Of a stretch of DNA of 45,248 nt, positions 1,037-8,833 are shown piece by piece. A program made the translations under genes and the position numbers. Each line of letters opens with the position of its first letter. The stretch's first letter is position 1. The notes below the pieces were generated by a model. The model was not told the origin of the DNA and made no database searches. It saw only the letters and a list, made by a program, of their open reading frames with translations. The stretch comes from Verrucomicrobiaceae bacterium (GTDB lineage: Bacteria > Verrucomicrobiota > Verrucomicrobiia > Verrucomicrobiales > Akkermansiaceae): contig SYAP01000357.1 in NCBI GenBank assembly GCA_005787565.1, positions 1-45,248 on the forward strand, written 5' to 3'.

Positions 1037-1898
1037 AAAAGAACAGCCGCCGCGCGGAAGAACGATCCCCCTCCACCGAGAACTTGACCGCCAGCGCCGT
1101 CATCAGCAACGCCAACAAAGGCCCGCCAATCGTCCACACCAGATTCGCAAATCCCTGCCACGCCGGAATCAGCGAGAAACCCGCCAGCATCAGCGCAAAC
1201 ATCCCGGACAACAGCCCGCTCTTCTTTCCACTCACATCTCCATTCGACCACATCTTGTATCCCGCCGATTCATACTCCTCGCGGCACAGCCAGTTGATCG
1301 CGATGAAATGCGGAAGCTGCCAGAAAAACAACAACCCGAAAAGAAACCACGCCTGCCACCCCAATCCCCCACCCGCACCCACCCACCCGATCATCGGCGG
1401 AATCGCCCCGGGAATCGCCCCCACCAGCGTGTTCGTCGAACTGAAACGCTTCAGCGGCGTGTAAATGAAAACATAGACCGCCACCGTCGCCGCTGTTAGA
1501 TAAGCAGCAAGATGTCCAACATTCACCGCAAGATGAATGATCCCCAACGCGGAAAGCACCCACCCGATCCCGAACGCAACCAAAGGATCCATCCGCCGCG
1601 ACGGCAAAGGCCGGTTCGCCGTCCGCCGCATCCGCGCATCCAGATCAACCTCCATCAACTGGTTGAACGCCGCCGACCCGAACGCCGCCGCCGCCGTCCC
1701 GATGATCAGATGCAGCAACCTCATCCACTCCATCGACTGCCCCTTCGATGCCAGCAAATACCCGAAAAACGCCGTAATCAGCACGAAAAAGTTCAGCCGA
1801 ACCTTCATCAGCACCGCCAAATCCGAACGCAAGCCCGGCACCGCCTCAGGGGCAGCCACCTCCGCAACCGGTGCCAAATCGGTTTTCTCCTCGCTCAC
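978..1898 (-). CDS. ctaB: Protoheme IX farnesyltransferase (heme o synthase)
   Basis: A UbiA-family polytopic prenyltransferase of 306 residues, the normal length. The first Asp-rich motif reads NQLMEVDLDARMRRT near residue 80, followed by the RPLPS motif; the loop YTPLKR...NTLVGAIPGAIPP and a strongly hydrophobic series of about eight or nine helices are typical of CtaB/CyoE. It farnesylates heme b to heme o for cytochrome oxidase. The start is a GTG sharing bases with the TGA stop of the upstream gene (GTGA overlap), which implies translational coupling to the two HtrA-like genes. No ctaA or cytochrome oxidase genes are in view, so the operon is unusual in pairing heme o synthesis with periplasmic protease-like proteins. 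The 3' end overlaps the convergent hydrolase gene. Confidence 0.93.
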   Translation of the reverse strand: MSEEKTDLAPVAEVAAPEAVPGLRSDLAVLMKVRLNFFVLITAFFGYLLASKGQSMEWMRLLHLIIGTAAAAFGSAAFNQLMEVDLDARMRRTANRPLPSRRMDPLVAFGIGWVLSALGIIHLAVNVGHLAAYLTAATVAVYVFIYTPLKRFSSTNTLVGAIPGAIPPMIGWVGAGGGLGWQAWFLFGLLFFWQLPHFIAINWLCREEYESAGYKMWSNGDVSGKKSGLLSGMFALMLAGFSLIPAWQGFANLVWTIGGPLLALLMTALAVKFSVEGDRSSARRLFFFTLLYLPVALVVLLLAWKK

Positions 1899-2899
1899 TT
1901 CGCTGCCTCCTTGATCATCCGCGCCGCAATCTCCTTCAACTCCTCACACGGAATCGTGAAATTCTCACACCGATTCACCCGCGCGATGTTCATCCCCAGA
2001 CAGCGCCCGTCCAAATCCAACAGCGGACCACCGATGTTGCGCCTGCTCCCTAACATGATGTCATGCTGGAGAACCCGCGGAAAACCACTACGCCGAGCGG
2101 AATACTCACCGCTCATCTGATCATTGCGCGTCACCTCCTCCTCGACCATCTGCGAGCGGGCCATCAGCTTCACATCAAAGGCCATCTCCTTCTTCGCTCG
2201 GCTCACAATCACTTTCACGATCACCCCTGGCTTCTTCCCTTTCAGCGCTTCGGCCATCTCCTCGATCTTGGAAATCGCCTTCCCATCCACACTGATCACC
2301 AGATCTCCCTTCTTCAACCCGGCCTCCTCCGCACCACTCTTCTCGACCACTTCCTTGATCTCTAACTGCTTGCCCTTGGTCTCAAGTTGCAACCCGATCG
2401 CCGCCCCTCCCGCAATCGGAATCTCCCTTGGCTTCGCGCTGATGATCCCCGCAAGCAACCGACGCTTCGTCCGCGTCGTCGCCCCATTCGCCACCACCCA
2501 CGTCCCCTGCTCCACCGCGCTGGTCGGTGCATAAACCACCGGAATCAAGCCTGCTGCGGGAACTTTCAACAACGCCACATCCCAATCCTCATCCGTCCCC
2601 AGAATCTCCACCTCCTTGTACTGCGTGCCATCCACGGTGACTCCCAGCTTCTTCACCTCCTTCAGCTCGCTGGCCTTTGTTAGAATATGCCCCTCCGGCG
2701 AAACAACCACACCATACTGGATCTCCCGCCGACCATCGAGAATCACCGCGCTGGACGTCTGCAACACCTGCCGCTGCGGCTCAAACGCCGCAACCACCCC
2801 GTTGCCCGTCGTGCGATAGTTGGACTCCAGACTCTGGAAGGCCGCCGTATTCAGCGCACTTCCTAACAGAATGCTTGTAAGAATGAGTTTAGCGTTCAC
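1895..2899 (-). CDS. Catalytically dead HtrA-like protein with an internal PDZ domain
   Basis: A 334-residue exported protein with a signal peptide (residues 1-21, MNAKLILTS...NTAAFQ). The chymotrypsin-like strands are recognisable: GVVVSPEGHILTKASEL aligns with the HtrA His region, but the His position is Ser; DWDVALLKV retains the Asp; the Ser region reads RNIGGPLLDLDGRCLGMN with Ile in place of the catalytic Ser. A PDZ domain (about residues 165-245, SGAEEAGLKKGDLVISVDG) lies before the NIGGP segment, not after it as in DegP/DegS, so it appears inserted inside the protease fold. It follows an intact HtrA homologue and overlaps ctaB. The GTG start overlaps the last codons of the upstream gene. 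It is likely a binding or regulatory pseudoprotease in the periplasm; its partner is unknown. Confidence 0.8.
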   Translation of the reverse strand: MNAKLILTSILLGSALNTAAFQSLESNYRTTGNGVVAAFEPQRQVLQTSSAVILDGRREIQYGVVVSPEGHILTKASELKEVKKLGVTVDGTQYKEVEILGTDEDWDVALLKVPAAGLIPVVYAPTSAVEQGTWVVANGATTRTKRRLLAGIISAKPREIPIAGGAAIGLQLETKGKQLEIKEVVEKSGAEEAGLKKGDLVISVDGKAISKIEEMAEALKGKKPGVIVKVIVSRAKKEMAFDVKLMARSQMVEEEVTRNDQMSGEYSARRSGFPRVLQHDIMLGSRRNIGGPLLDLDGRCLGMNIARVNRCENFTIPCEELKEIAARMIKEAAK

Positions 2900-3866
2900 C
2901 GAGTTTCAGATTGATCGTTTCCTTCTTGCCATCACGCAACAGTTCCAGCGCGAGCTTGTCACCCGCTGCCATCTCCTTGAGCAAATCCTGCATCTGCTCC
3001 CGGGTCTTCAAATCCACATCATTCATCTTAAGAATCACATCCCCCTCCTTGATCCCGGCCTCCTCCGCCGGACTCTCCCGCCCGACCTTCGTCACCTTCA
3101 ATCCCCCCTCATCACGAGCCTCCGTCGCAAGCCCCAGAAACCCGTTCCCCTTCACCGGCTTCTGTGCAAAAGGACCCTCCCCGATGAACTCCGACTTCAT
3201 CATCCCGTCCCAGTTCTCGACATAAACCTTCATCGGAACATGCATGTTCACCTGCAACTGCGCTCCCACCCGCGAGTGAATCCCGATCAGCCGCCCCTCC
3301 AGATCAAACAACGGCCCGCCCGAATCACCACCAATCAGCGTGCAGTCGGATTGAAACGTCGCATTCGCAATCCGCACCAATCGCCCCAACCTCACAACCG
3401 ACCCCCGCTCCTTGTCAAATCCCCCGGAATGCCCTAGCGAAAAAACCCAGTCACCCAGCTTGGTCGACTCCGCCCGATCAATCTCCACGAACGGAAACGG
3501 CCCCTTCTCCAAAATCTTCACCATCGCCGCATCCGTGTCCGCCACCAACCCCAGCGACTCCGCCTTCAGCTTCTTCCCGTCCTCCATGATCACCGTCAAC
3601 TCCTTGCCAACCCCCGTGCTCACGTGCGCGGCTGTTAGAACCAACCCATCCTCCGAAACAATCACCCCGCTGCCGGATCCCTCACCCAGGTCAATGCAAA
3701 CCGTCGCCGCACGCGCCTTCGGCAACACCGAAGTCAGCGACTTCTGGATCACCTCCAGATCCTTCCTGTCCTCAGGCGCCTTCTTGTCATTCACATAAGG
3801 TCGCGCGGACGCGGTGGAAATCCACCCGAACAACAACACCATCGGCAGGGCAAAAGTCAGCTTCAT
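2889..3866 (-). CDS. HtrA/DegP-like serine protease with one PDZ domain
   Basis: The start is placed at ATG 3866 because it begins a clean signal peptide (MKLTFALPMVLLFGWISTASA); a further 30 codons of open frame upstream encode unconvincing sequence. The catalytic triad is intact: His in TAAHVS (about residue 81), Asp in DTDAAMVKI (about 111-113) and Ser in GGDSGGPL (about 182). A single PDZ domain follows (about 235-325, ESPAEEAGIKEGDVILKMNDVD). The product is about 325 residues, typical of a single-PDZ HtrA, and should act in the periplasm on misfolded envelope proteins. It is the first gene of a three-gene minus-strand operon with the degenerate paralogue and ctaB. It is transcribed divergently from the CotH gene with about 140 bp between the starts. 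Confidence 0.88.
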   Translation of the reverse strand: MKLTFALPMVLLFGWISTASARPYVNDKKAPEDRKDLEVIQKSLTSVLPKARAATVCIDLGEGSGSGVIVSEDGLVLTAAHVSTGVGKELTVIMEDGKKLKAESLGLVADTDAAMVKILEKGPFPFVEIDRAESTKLGDWVFSLGHSGGFDKERGSVVRLGRLVRIANATFQSDCTLIGGDSGGPLFDLEGRLIGIHSRVGAQLQVNMHVPMKVYVENWDGMMKSEFIGEGPFAQKPVKGNGFLGLATEARDEGGLKVTKVGRESPAEEAGIKEGDVILKMNDVDLKTREQMQDLLKEMAAGDKLALELLRDGKKETINLKLGER

Positions 3867-4006
3867 CGGTATCAATAGCGTCACCCTAGCCGGGTCCTGT
3901 TCCCGCTGCAACCCCCTCCTTCGCACAAAACCACACCAATCCACCCCACCTTCCATTCAACCCCTTCCGGAGTTGCACACCTAGAGAATCAACCTTAAAA
4001 ACATCC

Positions 4007-7000
4007 ATGCGACTCTCCTGCACCCTCGCCTTGCTGATACCCCTGCTCCCCACCAAAGGAGCTGCCCAAGCCGTGATCAGCGAGTTCATGGCCGATAACT
4101 CAACCACCATCGCCGACAACTTCGGAAACTTCCCCGACTGGATCGAAATCCACAACCCCTCCTCCCAACCCATCGACCTCACCGATTGGTCCCTCACCGA
4201 CAACGCCGCCGACCTCACCAAATGGCGCTTCCCCACCATCACCCTCGCCCCCGGCGAATTCCGCGTCGTCTGGGCATCCAACCTCAACCTCAGAGACCCG
4301 GCAGCCCCCCTCCACACCAACTTCGCCCTATCCAAAGGCGGTGAATACCTCGCACTCGTCCGCCCGGACGGCACCACCATCGAACACCAATTCGCACCCG
4401 CCTTTCCACCCCAGGAAACCGACGGCTCCTGGGGCCTCCGCTTCGACTCCACCGTCCACGTCGCCACCGGCGCAACCTTCTCCTACCGCGTCCCCTCCAG
4501 CATCAGCAACCCAGGCCTCAACTGGGCATCCCCCGCCTTCAATTCTAGCAGTTGGACCACCGGCCCAAGCGGCTTCGGCTTCGGCCTCACCGTCCCCGGC
4601 ATCACCGTCCGCCACGTCTTCAAAAACGGCGGCATCGGCGGCCTAACCGACGCCGCGAACCTCGTCCTCCTCCCCGATAGCGACCCACAGGTCTCATCCT
4701 CAGCCACCGTCGTCCTCCCCACCGTCAACATCCTCGGCGAAGGCGGCGATGGCAGATACGGAAACAACACCCCGCCCCCCGCAGGCATCGGCGACCAATA
4801 TGCCATCCGCGGCACCGGCTTCGTCCAAATCATCACCCCCGGAAATTACACCTTCGGCCTCAATTCCGACGACGGCGGCCGCATCCGCATCAACGGCAAC
4901 AACGTCATGGTCGACGACTCCTTCCACGGCGCGCAAGACCACTTCGGCACCATCAGCCTCTCCGCCGGTTGGCACGAATTCGAAATCATCATGTTCGAAG
5001 GCGGCGGTGGCGACTGCGTGGAATTCTTCGCCGCACCCGGCATCCGCACCTCCTTCGATGCGACAGCCTTCCGCCTCGTCGGCGACGTCGCCAACGGCGG
5101 CCTCGCAGCAGCCACCTTCCCGAACGGCACCGGCAGCATCATCGCCACCAACATCCAAACCGCCATGAGCGGCAGAACCAGCGCCTACTTCCGCACCACC
5201 CCCACCGGCTCCCCAGGCGCTGCCACCTCCCTCTCGCTCGTCATGCGCGCCAACGATGGCTTCGCCGCATTCCTCAACGGCACCGAAATCGCCCGCGACA
5301 ACACACCGCAAACCCTCGCCTGGAACTCCGCCGCCGTCACCCCGCTCTCCACCGAAGCCAGCCTCCAGAAACGCGGCTTCAACGTCACCTCCGCACTCCC
5401 CTCCCTCTCCGCCCCCTCCCCCCTCCTCGCCATCCAGGGCATGCGCACCTCCACCAGCGACACCGGATTCCTCATCATCCCCGAACTCATCAGCGGCAGC
5501 ATCGCCAACGATCCCGGTCCCGCCCTCTACGCCGGAAATCTCGCCACCCCCGGCTGGATCAACGGCCCCATCAGCTCCCTCGGCCCCGTCGCCGAAGTCT
5601 CCTTCTCCACCCAACGCGGCATCTTCACCTCCCCCGTCTCCCTCACTCTCACCACCACCACACCCGGTGCCAATATCCGATACACCACCAACGGATCCAC
5701 CCCAAGCTCCACCAACGGAACCCTCTACACCACCCCTCTCAACATCTCCTCCACCACCGTCATCCGCGCCGTCGCCTACAAGCCAGATTTCGATAACTCA
5801 CCCGTCTCCACCCACACCTACCTCTTCCCCAACGACGTCATCACCCAAAGCTCTAACGGAAGCGCCCCTCCTGGCTGGCCATCCACAAGCGGCACCTCCC
5901 AAGTCCTCGACTACGGAATGGATCCGGAAATCGTCAATCACGCCAACCCACAAATCGGCGGCCAAACCCAAGTCAAAAACGCACTCCTCTCCCTCCCCAG
6001 CGTCATCATCACCACCGACCTCCCGAACCTCTTCAACATCGGCGGCTCACGCGGCATCTACGCCAACCCCTACGACCGCGGCATCTCAGCCGAACGCCCG
6101 GCCTCCCTCGAATGGATCAATCCCCCAACACCCGAAAACACCAACGGCACCAGCGAATTCCAAATCAACGCCGGACTCCGCATCCGCGGCGGATTCTCCC
6201 GCTCCACCGATAACCCAAAACACGCCCTCCGCTTCCTCTTCCGCAGCGAATACGGCGCGGCAAAACTCAACTACCCCCTCTTCGGCGATCAAGGCGCTTC
6301 CGTCTTCGATAAAATCGACTTCCGAACCTCGCAAAACTACTCCTGGTCCTTCCAAAACGACGACCAAAACACCTTCCTCCGCGAGGAATCCTCCCGCCAG
6401 GCCTTCCTCGACATGGGCCAACCCGGCTCTCACGTCCGCTACGTCCACCTCTATCTCAACGGCCAATACTGGGGCCTCTTCAACCTCGACGAACGCACCG
6501 AAGCCGACTTCGCCGCCACCTACTACGGCGGAACCAAGGAAGAATACGACGTCGTCAAAGCCGAGCAAGACTCCAACTACACCACCCAGGCCGTCGAAGG
6601 AAACGCAGACGCCTGGAACGCCCTCTGGAACCTCGCCAAAACCCATCGCGCCAACCCCACCAACCAAAACTACTTCCGCATGCAAGGCCTCGCCGCCGAT
6701 GGCGTCAACCCCACCGCAGACCCAGTCCTCCTCGATGCCGACAACCTCATCGACTACCTCATGACCACCTTCTGGACCGGAAACTTCGACGGTGCGACCT
6801 CAGCCTTCCTCGGCAACGACCGCGCCAACAACTGGTCCGCATCCCGCCGCCGCGACAACAACCCCGGCCAAGGCTTCCGCTTCTACGTCCACGACTTCGA
6901 ACATTCCCTCTTCAACGTCAACGAAGACCGCACCGGACCCTTCCCCAGCGCCAACGAATCCAACATCTCCTACGCCAATCCCATGTTCCTCCACCAGGAC

Positions 7001-8833
7001 CTCATCGGAAACGCCGAATACCGCATGCGCTGGGCCGACCGCGCACACCGCCACCTCTTCAACAACGGCGCCCTCACCACCCAGGCATGGCTCGATCGCG
7101 TCAACAACTTCGCCGCCATCGTCGACGCCTCCATCATCGCCGAAAGCGCTCGCTGGGGCGACGCCAAAAACCCCATCCCCAAAACCCGGCTCACCTGGCA
7201 AAACGCCCGCAACAACCTCCTCAACTACCTCCCCCAACGCGGCTCCGTCGTCCTCAACCAACTCCGCAACGACGGCCTTTACCCATCCATCGACGCCCCG
7301 GTCCCAACCCCTAACAGCGGCGCGGTCGCAGTCAACACACCCCTCGACATCACCGGCCCTCCCGGCGCGGAAATCTACTACATGCCCGATGGCTCGGACC
7401 CACGCGCCATCGGCGGTGCCCTCCGCCCCGGCGCTCAACTCTACATCCCCTCCACCACCACCGAGGAACTCGTCCCCTGGTCCGCAACCGGCTGGCGCTA
7501 CCTCTCACCCGCCACCGACCTCGGCACCACATGGAGGACCACCTCCTTCGTCGACACCTCATGGCCCACCGGCACCGCCGAAATCGGCTACGGCGATGGC
7601 GATGAATCCACCGCAATCCCCACACCGCCCAATCCCAAACCATCCGCCGTCTACTTCCGCAAATCCTTCACCATCTCCAACCTCTCGGAAATCACCTCCC
7701 TCAACCTCTCAGTGGAATACGACGACTCCTTCGCCGTCTACATCAACGGCACCCGCGTCGCTGGAAACCTCCCCACCAATCCCGCACCGGACCTCTTCTT
7801 CGGAAGCGCCATCGAGGACACCATCGAAAACTTCACCCTCGATACCACCACCCTCATCACAGGCAACAACGTCGTCGCCGTCGAAGTCCACCAGTCGAAC
7901 AACACCAGCAGCGACCTCAGCATGAACCTCTCGCTCACCGCCAACCGCCAAAACAGCTCAACCGCACTCGTTCTCGACCAACCCGGCATCACCACCCTCC
8001 GCCTCCGCGCCAAAAACGGCGCCACCTGGAGCGCCCTCCAGGAATCCGTCTATCAGGTTTCCCTCATCCAGCCATCCCCGGCAAATCTCATCGTCTCCGA
8101 ACTCTCCTACAACCCTCCCGCCCCCCACGACCTCGCCGAATTCATCGAACTCTGGAACGCCGACCCGGTCTCCGCCCTCGACCTCTCCGGCGCACGCTTC
8201 ACCAACGGCATCGACTACTCCTTCCCGGATGGCACCACCCTTGCGCCTAACAGCCGCATCCTCCTTGTTAGAAACCCCGCCGCCTTCGAAACCCTCTACG
8301 GCACCTCCATCCCCATCGCCGGAGTCTTCGAAAACAACACCGCCCTTTCTAACACCGGCGAACGCATCCGCATCGAAACATCAACCGGCATCACCCTCGT
8401 CGACTTCACCTACGGCACCTCCTTCCCCTGGCAACCCTCCGCCTCCGGCCTCGGCCGCTCCATCGTCCTCACCAATCCCGCCAACCCCAACTCGCCGGAC
8501 TCATGGCGCCCCAGCGCCACAGACTTCGGAAACCCATCCACATCCGACTCCATCCCCCTCCAACCCGGCCAAGACCTTCTCCTCTACGCACTCGACGGCA
8601 TCCAACCCACCTTCGATCCCGCCACCGGAATCTTCTCCATCGACCGCCGCCTCGGCACCGACGACGTCACCCTCATCGCCGAGTGGTCCGACAACCTCAC
8701 CACCTGGACCCAAACCGGCATCACCAAAATCTCCGAAACCGCCACCACCCCCAACCGCTCCACCCTCCGCTACTCCCTCACCCCCCTCCCTCCCTCCCAA
8801 GCCTTCCTCCGCGTCCGCATCACCACCCCCTGA
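4007..8833 (+). CDS. Giant secreted CotH-kinase/lamin-tail/PA14 multidomain protein
   Basis: 1608 residues with a signal peptide (MRLSCTLALLIPLLPTKGAAQA). Domains read in order: lamin-tail domain (about 22-130, ISEFMADNS...DWIEIHN), PA14-like sugar-binding fold (about 263-345, YTFGLNSDDGGRIRING), chitobiase/hexosaminidase C-terminal-like beta domain (about 528-605, ANIRYTTNGSTPSS), CotH kinase-like domain (about 720-1085, LRIRGGFSRS, LNGQYWGLFNLDER, YVHDFEHSLF), a jelly-roll domain (about 1155-1315, YFRKSFTI...DDSFAVYINGTRV) and a second lamin-tail domain (about 1358-1510, LIVSELSYNPP...AEFIELWN). CotH proteins include spore-coat and secretory-protein kinases; here CotH is fused to adhesion or glycan-binding modules. 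Together this suggests an extracellular or surface protein that phosphorylates or binds other secreted proteins, or assembles with them. Activity is inferred from family only. It ends 1 bp before the convergent GH172 gene. Confidence 0.85.
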   Translation: MRLSCTLALLIPLLPTKGAAQAVISEFMADNSTTIADNFGNFPDWIEIHNPSSQPIDLTDWSLTDNAADLTKWRFPTITLAPGEFRVVWASNLNLRDPAAPLHTNFALSKGGEYLALVRPDGTTIEHQFAPAFPPQETDGSWGLRFDSTVHVATGATFSYRVPSSISNPGLNWASPAFNSSSWTTGPSGFGFGLTVPGITVRHVFKNGGIGGLTDAANLVLLPDSDPQVSSSATVVLPTVNILGEGGDGRYGNNTPPPAGIGDQYAIRGTGFVQIITPGNYTFGLNSDDGGRIRINGNNVMVDDSFHGAQDHFGTISLSAGWHEFEIIMFEGGGGDCVEFFAAPGIRTSFDATAFRLVGDVANGGLAAATFPNGTGSIIATNIQTAMSGRTSAYFRTTPTGSPGAATSLSLVMRANDGFAAFLNGTEIARDNTPQTLAWNSAAVTPLSTEASLQKRGFNVTSALPSLSAPSPLLAIQGMRTSTSDTGFLIIPELISGSIANDPGPALYAGNLATPGWINGPISSLGPVAEVSFSTQRGIFTSPVSLTLTTTTPGANIRYTTNGSTPSSTNGTLYTTPLNISSTTVIRAVAYKPDFDNSPVSTHTYLFPNDVITQSSNGSAPPGWPSTSGTSQVLDYGMDPEIVNHANPQIGGQTQVKNALLSLPSVIITTDLPNLFNIGGSRGIYANPYDRGISAERPASLEWINPPTPENTNGTSEFQINAGLRIRGGFSRSTDNPKHALRFLFRSEYGAAKLNYPLFGDQGASVFDKIDFRTSQNYSWSFQNDDQNTFLREESSRQAFLDMGQPGSHVRYVHLYLNGQYWGLFNLDERTEADFAATYYGGTKEEYDVVKAEQDSNYTTQAVEGNADAWNALWNLAKTHRANPTNQNYFRMQGLAADGVNPTADPVLLDADNLIDYLMTTFWTGNFDGATSAFLGNDRANNWSASRRRDNNPGQGFRFYVHDFEHSLFNVNEDRTGPFPSANESNISYANPMFLHQDLIGNAEYRMRWADRAHRHLFNNGALTTQAWLDRVNNFAAIVDASIIAESARWGDAKNPIPKTRLTWQNARNNLLNYLPQRGSVVLNQLRNDGLYPSIDAPVPTPNSGAVAVNTPLDITGPPGAEIYYMPDGSDPRAIGGALRPGAQLYIPSTTTEELVPWSATGWRYLSPATDLGTTWRTTSFVDTSWPTGTAEIGYGDGDESTAIPTPPNPKPSAVYFRKSFTISNLSEITSLNLSVEYDDSFAVYINGTRVAGNLPTNPAPDLFFGSAIEDTIENFTLDTTTLITGNNVVAVEVHQSNNTSSDLSMNLSLTANRQNSSTALVLDQPGITTLRLRAKNGATWSALQESVYQVSLIQPSPANLIVSELSYNPPAPHDLAEFIELWNADPVSALDLSGARFTNGIDYSFPDGTTLAPNSRILLVRNPAAFETLYGTSIPIAGVFENNTALSNTGERIRIETSTGITLVDFTYGTSFPWQPSASGLGRSIVLTNPANPNSPDSWRPSATDFGNPSTSDSIPLQPGQDLLLYALDGIQPTFDPATGIFSIDRRLGTDDVTLIAEWSDNLTTWTQTGITKISETATTPNRSTLRYSLTPLPPSQAFLRVRITTP

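Follow-up and report, generated by a model that had tools for sequence, protein, structure and literature searches.

What a bacterium might gain from a protease lacking the residues that cut, encoded immediately beside one that retains them, is the question raised by a locus in a Verrucomicrobiaceae bacterium (Akkermansiaceae; assembly GCA_005787565.1, contig SYAP01000357.1), of which a window of 45,248 nucleotides was analysed. On the minus strand, an open reading frame called on the window at positions 1895-2899, with a GTG start, encodes a pseudo-HtrA of 334 amino acids; it overlaps the frame of an HtrA protease upstream (2889-3956) by 11 nt and that of the heme o synthase CtaB downstream (978-1898, above the TIGR01473 cut-off) by 4 nt. 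By Pfam and alignment the upstream HtrA, hereafter the partner, has an intact triad (H111, D142 and S212) and a C-terminal PDZ domain, and its true start is probably near position 3866, judging by the signal-like MKLTFALP. The N-terminus of the pseudo-HtrA likewise resembles a signal peptide by eye, and both proteins are probably exported to the periplasm. A divergent 1608-aa open reading frame (4007-8833) adjoins the pair.

The pseudo-HtrA is an HtrA double barrel whose second β-barrel holds a PDZ domain nested at loop L3, a topology supported by profile comparisons and predicted models. Pfam places Trypsin_2 at residues 63-158, reaching position 108 of the 144 in the profile, and PDZ_2 at residues 167-245. 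With HMMs and the models added, residues 45-160 (2420-2767) comprise the first barrel and strands 7-8 of the second, residues 165-247 (2159-2407) the PDZ domain, which the structural alignments skip, and residues 256-328 (1916-2134) a conserved linker, NDxMSGxxSxRRxxFP, followed by strands 9-12, as placed by HMM and hhalign. The remainder of the barrel (about residues 271-328) resumes the match to HtrA chains where the first part breaks off: in a phmmer search of solved structures, query residue 158 falls on DegQ 164 and query residue 271 on DegQ 170, with residues 271-307 placed. Similarly, hhalign of the pseudoprotease family against E. coli DegS, DegP and DegQ, together with one HtrA from a relative, recovers both halves as one hit (E 5.5e-22) in which the PDZ domain is mostly gap. 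Arg158 (2426-2428) lies opposite DegS Arg178 and DegP Arg187, as numbered on the E. coli genes. Given that loop L3 of DegS spans residues 176-189, and that its Arg178 contacts LD' of the adjacent subunit upon binding of a PDZ ligand (PMC11642142), the PDZ domain of the pseudo-HtrA is placed in the sensor loop itself, the loop that acts on LD of the neighbouring protomer (PMC4877387).

Two AlphaFold models, both of low-to-medium confidence and with a second barrel so poorly resolved that loop detail is unreliable, were aligned by VIA-align to DegS structures without the PDZ domain (DegS-deltaPDZ). The first (five-row alignment, mean pLDDT 66, below 50 in the second-barrel segments 139-164 and 253-288) matched 3lgy over residues 30-331 with Z 19.1, rmsd 3.9 and 168 of 179 residues; Foldseek returned HtrA matches for it, but with low TM-scores (TMq 0.24-0.28 among the 50 matches listed) that say little about nesting. 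The second (ten-row alignment including partner barrels, mean pLDDT 72) matched 3lgt over residues 1-293 with Z 19.2, rmsd 3.0 and 167 of 181 residues, and serves as supporting evidence only, as its alignment, A3, sets strand 8 of the partner doubtfully. Since the alignment of both models spans the two sides of the PDZ domain, the halves before and after it are predicted to form one barrel pair; the ordinary arrangement that would have told against nesting, an HtrA followed by a PDZ and then a separate second domain, was not seen. The order of N-terminal half, PDZ and C-terminal half moreover holds by HMM in 69 of 69 aligned pseudoproteases, with the nested PDZ detected in all of them (the weakest score noted being the 28 bits of L140), and a layout that recurs in this way is not one of chance. 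These 69 genes, from 40 genomes or records, were counted after removal of L038, which comes from a record of Luteolibacter pohnpeiensis and is the same gene as L042, and their alignment omits some copies, such as those of type A in G030 and G063. Pfam, hhalign, the models and the relatives are thus at one with the first-pass annotation of the window, which had placed the PDZ domain between the Asp strand and the NIGGP segment and had proposed structure prediction as the check.

Within this barrel the canonical T-A-A-H reads T-K-A-S, with Ser77 (2669-2671) at the position of the catalytic His, and the canonical N/D-S-G-G reads N-I-G-G, with Ile289 (2033-2035) at that of the catalytic Ser, both as first annotated, while the triad Asp is kept as Asp107 (2579-2581). 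A catalytic His is present in none of the 69 pseudoproteases, the position being Ser in 66, Glu in 2 and Thr in 1. The Ser position is occupied by Met (20), Ala (16), Cys (12), Val (11), Ile (5), Thr (3), Leu (1) and Ser (1), and the lone Ser, in L053, is found without the His and without the GG. The triad Asp is kept in 67 of 69. In the same alignment Arg158 and Arg310 are each present in 69 of 69, Gln278, the equivalent of DegS Q191, in 67 and Lys75 likewise in 67; the motifs TKAS, FPxVxQHD and NIARxxR are conserved outside the triad. Read from sequence, the family keeps the very residues that act on a neighbour, the L3 arginine and the glutamine, and loses those that cut. As an HtrA/Do (S1C) protein it therefore qualifies by its double barrel homologous to DegP and DegS and not by a His-Asp-Ser triad or by a PDZ C-terminal to the protease domain, and against the TIGR02037 cut-off of 416 bits both the pseudo-HtrA (104) and the partner (158) score below.

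A 17-row pseudoprotease profile (A2) matches 39 of 387 genomes of the phylum at E<=1e-20, of which one (G010), matched in the N-terminal half only, was set aside. The remaining 38 comprise 29 of the 39 genomes of the window's own family (f1), 6 of a family of the same order (f2) and 3 of a family elsewhere in the phylum (f34); among the misses listed, which leave 328 others besides, none comes from this order outside f1. Two pairs, of types A and B, occur in most f1 genomes and one in f2 genomes, and in the window's genome the second pair is on another contig. A profile of the partner barrel (A7) at E<=1e-40, with matches at 3.7e-32 or weaker taken as ordinary HtrAs, finds 37 of the 387 genomes, all 37 of which have the pseudoprotease. 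The first-pass annotation had looked to other Verrucomicrobia for the same architecture and gene order, counting absence of the pair from relatives against its reading; the 69 relatives have the same layout, and the pair is there in those 37 genomes. Both members are absent from ten small genomes of genus g2, nine of which, searched with the window's HtrA, gave distant matches only, and this co-loss may be a single event. The one orphan, in G317 (L130, 4585-5499), has no close partner (best match 4.3e-28) and has lost both otherwise invariant arginines, with Tyr for Arg158 and Pro for Arg310.

In a quick tree, with some long branches and with 14 near-duplicate loci removed, the pseudoproteases form one clade (SH-aLRT 97) and the partners another (92). 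Separate trees of the two genes have 26 of 51 splits in common, as against a maximum of 3 in 500 shuffles; the species history common to both genes explains part of this agreement. The A, B and fused groups match in both trees, which implies that the pair was duplicated as a unit. A scan of genome contigs with the pseudo-HtrA returned four close relatives. Searches of plasmids listed partial matches only, none with at least 80% query cover, and those that carried an annotation were for the most part HtrA or PDZ proteins; the viral contigs searched gave no match to the pseudo-HtrA. Planctomycetes may have similar C-terminal motifs.

All 69 partners have a complete triad of His, Asp and Ser. Sixty of the 69 pseudoprotease genes adjoin their partner and share its strand, with frames that overlap in 43 cases (some overlaps are overstated, the starts being the first possible ones), and in 8 the two are joined in one frame (L053, L054, L057, L063, L068, L074, L075 and L077); the one unlinked gene, in G234, has its partner on another contig of the same genome. 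The coupling to an intact HtrA first remarked in the window thus extends, as adjacency or fusion, to 68 of 69. Fusions exist in both gene orders, L053 having the pseudoprotease first, and the fused state requires 5 changes on the pseudoprotease tree as against 4 on that of the partner. In two fusions of one genome (L054 and L057, G086), some 250-330 residues with no detectable PDZ lie between the catalytic and pseudoprotease halves, and in L054 this stretch has, by eye, a short internal repeat.

The partner has a shorter L3 region, and the idea that it is without the L3 arginine was ruled out: an Arg is placed there by hhalign as well as by MAFFT, and 66 of 69 partners have an Arg aligned with DegS Arg178. 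The glutamine equivalent to DegS Q191 is found in 35 of 69 partners as against 67 of 69 pseudoproteases. In genus g2, where the A-pair gene is present in 13 genomes, the partner PDZ is absent from all 11 of the A pairs examined, and the catalytic member also has no PDZ in two f34 fusions; in both groups the pseudoprotease retains its nested one. The only PDZ of such pairs is thus that of the dead member, the partners having lost their own in at least two lineages. Conversely, two HtrA-pseudoprotease fusions of G277, L169 (1623-4421) and L170 (1832-3445), have no PDZ at all, and the nested PDZ is thus dispensable in some cases. That the pseudoprotease barrel is kept there without it is a reason to think that the barrel does more than carry the PDZ, whether structurally or allosterically. 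L169 also has a C-terminal SASA (sialic acid-specific acetylesterase) domain; in L170 the Arg158 column is an alignment gap and Gln278 is replaced by Arg.

The first annotation had extended the coupling to heme o synthase and perhaps to cytochrome oxidase assembly. CtaB adjoins the pair at the window (1 of 71 loci) and at 0 of the 70 other loci, most viewed with about 1.5-5 kb of flank per side; this coupling was therefore rejected as lacking comparative support, and CtaB lies outside the conserved system. Nor are a TPM-domain zinc-ribbon gene and a TPMT-like methyltransferase gene counted in the system, being present at 12 and 8 of 24 A-pair loci, respectively; examples lie at L036 (2144-2851) and L040 (6567-7277).

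Pairing of a live with a degenerate HtrA has a precedent. MamO of magnetotactic bacteria is a degenerate HtrA that promotes proteolysis by the live HtrA MamE without catalysis of its own (PMC4794232), and a degenerate HtrA encoded with a live one is likewise what the window presents. The systems differ in that the PDZ of the pseudo-HtrA is nested in the barrel, and in that the window's family shows repeated fusion, whereas the MamE/MamO work reports that no physical interaction between the two was detected (PMC4794232). MamE/MamO is the nearest known precedent, for function; the pseudo-HtrA itself is not a MamO by the tests applied, scoring 25 bits against the MamO model cut-off of 800 and having no Pfam match to a TauE-like domain in its 334 residues, which end with the barrel. 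DegS and DegP (S1C) offer the same double barrel and PDZ family, and the arginine and glutamine of their activation cluster are kept in the pseudo-HtrA, such that the L3-LD relay serves as a working likeness; the catalytic His and Ser are not kept, and the PDZ is in loop L3 rather than after the barrel. SpoIVB and the C-terminal processing peptidases are also PDZ-regulated proteases in which the PDZ is not simply C-terminal, but they are active, and their PDZ is not known to lie in a loop of a chymotrypsin-like barrel. Arabidopsis Deg5 and Deg8 are two HtrAs with a synergistic effect, of which recombinant Deg8 degrades casein and Deg5 does not (PMC3640471); the natural Deg5, however, has a serine, as its crystallisation as an S266A mutant implies, and is not known to have a nested PDZ. 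Live/dead pairing is thus known. A search of titles and opening abstract lines of open-licence PMC articles gave no account of this pair or of an HtrA barrel with a PDZ inside it, and so none of a dead HtrA that has a PDZ in its sensor loop and is fixed as the partner of a live one.

What, then, does the dead member do? A regulatory, non-catalytic subunit is the most likely answer, with activation in trans through L3 its favoured form, and on balance we think the pseudo-HtrA probably a dedicated partner of the upstream HtrA that joins it in a mixed oligomer and activates it by way of the L3 loop carrying the nested PDZ. An exposed C-terminal peptide would bind the nested PDZ and move L3 directly; the L3 arginine of the pseudoprotease would then act on the LD loop of an adjoining catalytic subunit and switch it on, so that sensing would reside largely in the dead subunit and cutting in the live one. 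The role as partner is indicated by a gene that follows a live HtrA in descent, duplication and loss and has repeatedly been fused with it, and the suspicion first voiced at the window, that a dead paralogue beside a live protease is a regulator or adaptor, gains from the same pairing, co-occurrence, mirrored trees and fusion. Activation is favoured because the L3 arginine and the glutamine are kept in pseudoproteases from which the His has gone. Given that most partners have the arginine, and usually a PDZ, of their own, activation may not need the pseudoprotease. An obligate two-subunit HtrA, with sensing and allosteric switching moved to the dead subunit, and with peptide binding to the PDZ in L3 driving that loop mechanically and so activating the live neighbour in trans, is put forward more tentatively, as a possibility that we would not yet prefer.

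The pseudo-HtrA might instead be a substrate adaptor, its PDZ binding substrate C-termini and its barrel docking onto the partner with no signal through L3. The presence of a PDZ in every aligned pseudoprotease, and the loss of the partner PDZ in the g2 A pairs and the two f34 fusions, as if one PDZ sufficed, both suit an adaptor, but it leaves the invariant Arg158 and Arg310, and the two PDZ-less fused barrels, unexplained, and we regard it as unlikely though worth keeping in view. Dead paralogues in mixed oligomers can act in a dominant-negative manner, and the pseudo-HtrA may accordingly dilute the partner or hold it at rest until a signal arrives. The contact between PDZ and L3 in resting DegS is indeed autoinhibitory (PMC11642142), but retention of the activating arginine and glutamine better fits activation; inhibition is compatible with these residues, and yet rather improbable as the principal role.

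An independent, non-proteolytic function, as a scaffold or metal site like the protease domain of MamO (PMC4794232), the MamO type having a surface di-histidine metal site, with the pairing a relic of history, could account for conserved motifs that lie outside the triad. It fits poorly with co-loss, mirrored trees and repeated fusion, and likewise with the loss of the invariant arginines in the partnerless orphan, and must be thought very unlikely. Less credible still is that the protein remains an enzyme with some other catalytic arrangement. Lys75 and Ser77 are nearly invariant and 12 of 69 have Cys in place of the catalytic Ser, but the Ser position is Met, Ala, Cys, Val, Ile, Thr or Leu in 68 of 69, such that no nucleophile is conserved there.

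The favoured reading, activation in trans by a dead subunit, bears on how HtrA proteases are understood. Their allostery, running from the PDZ through L3 to the LD loop of a neighbour, is known mainly from the dissection of homotrimers, whose subunits each sense and cut. A naturally occurring division of the two tasks, as seems to exist here with the PDZ in the sensor loop, would make the relay testable one side at a time. More broadly, these findings suggest that the pairing of a live with a dead HtrA, as described in magnetotactic bacteria, is found again in the window's phylum, that it is fixed across much of one order, and that sensing and cutting are there split between two partner proteins.
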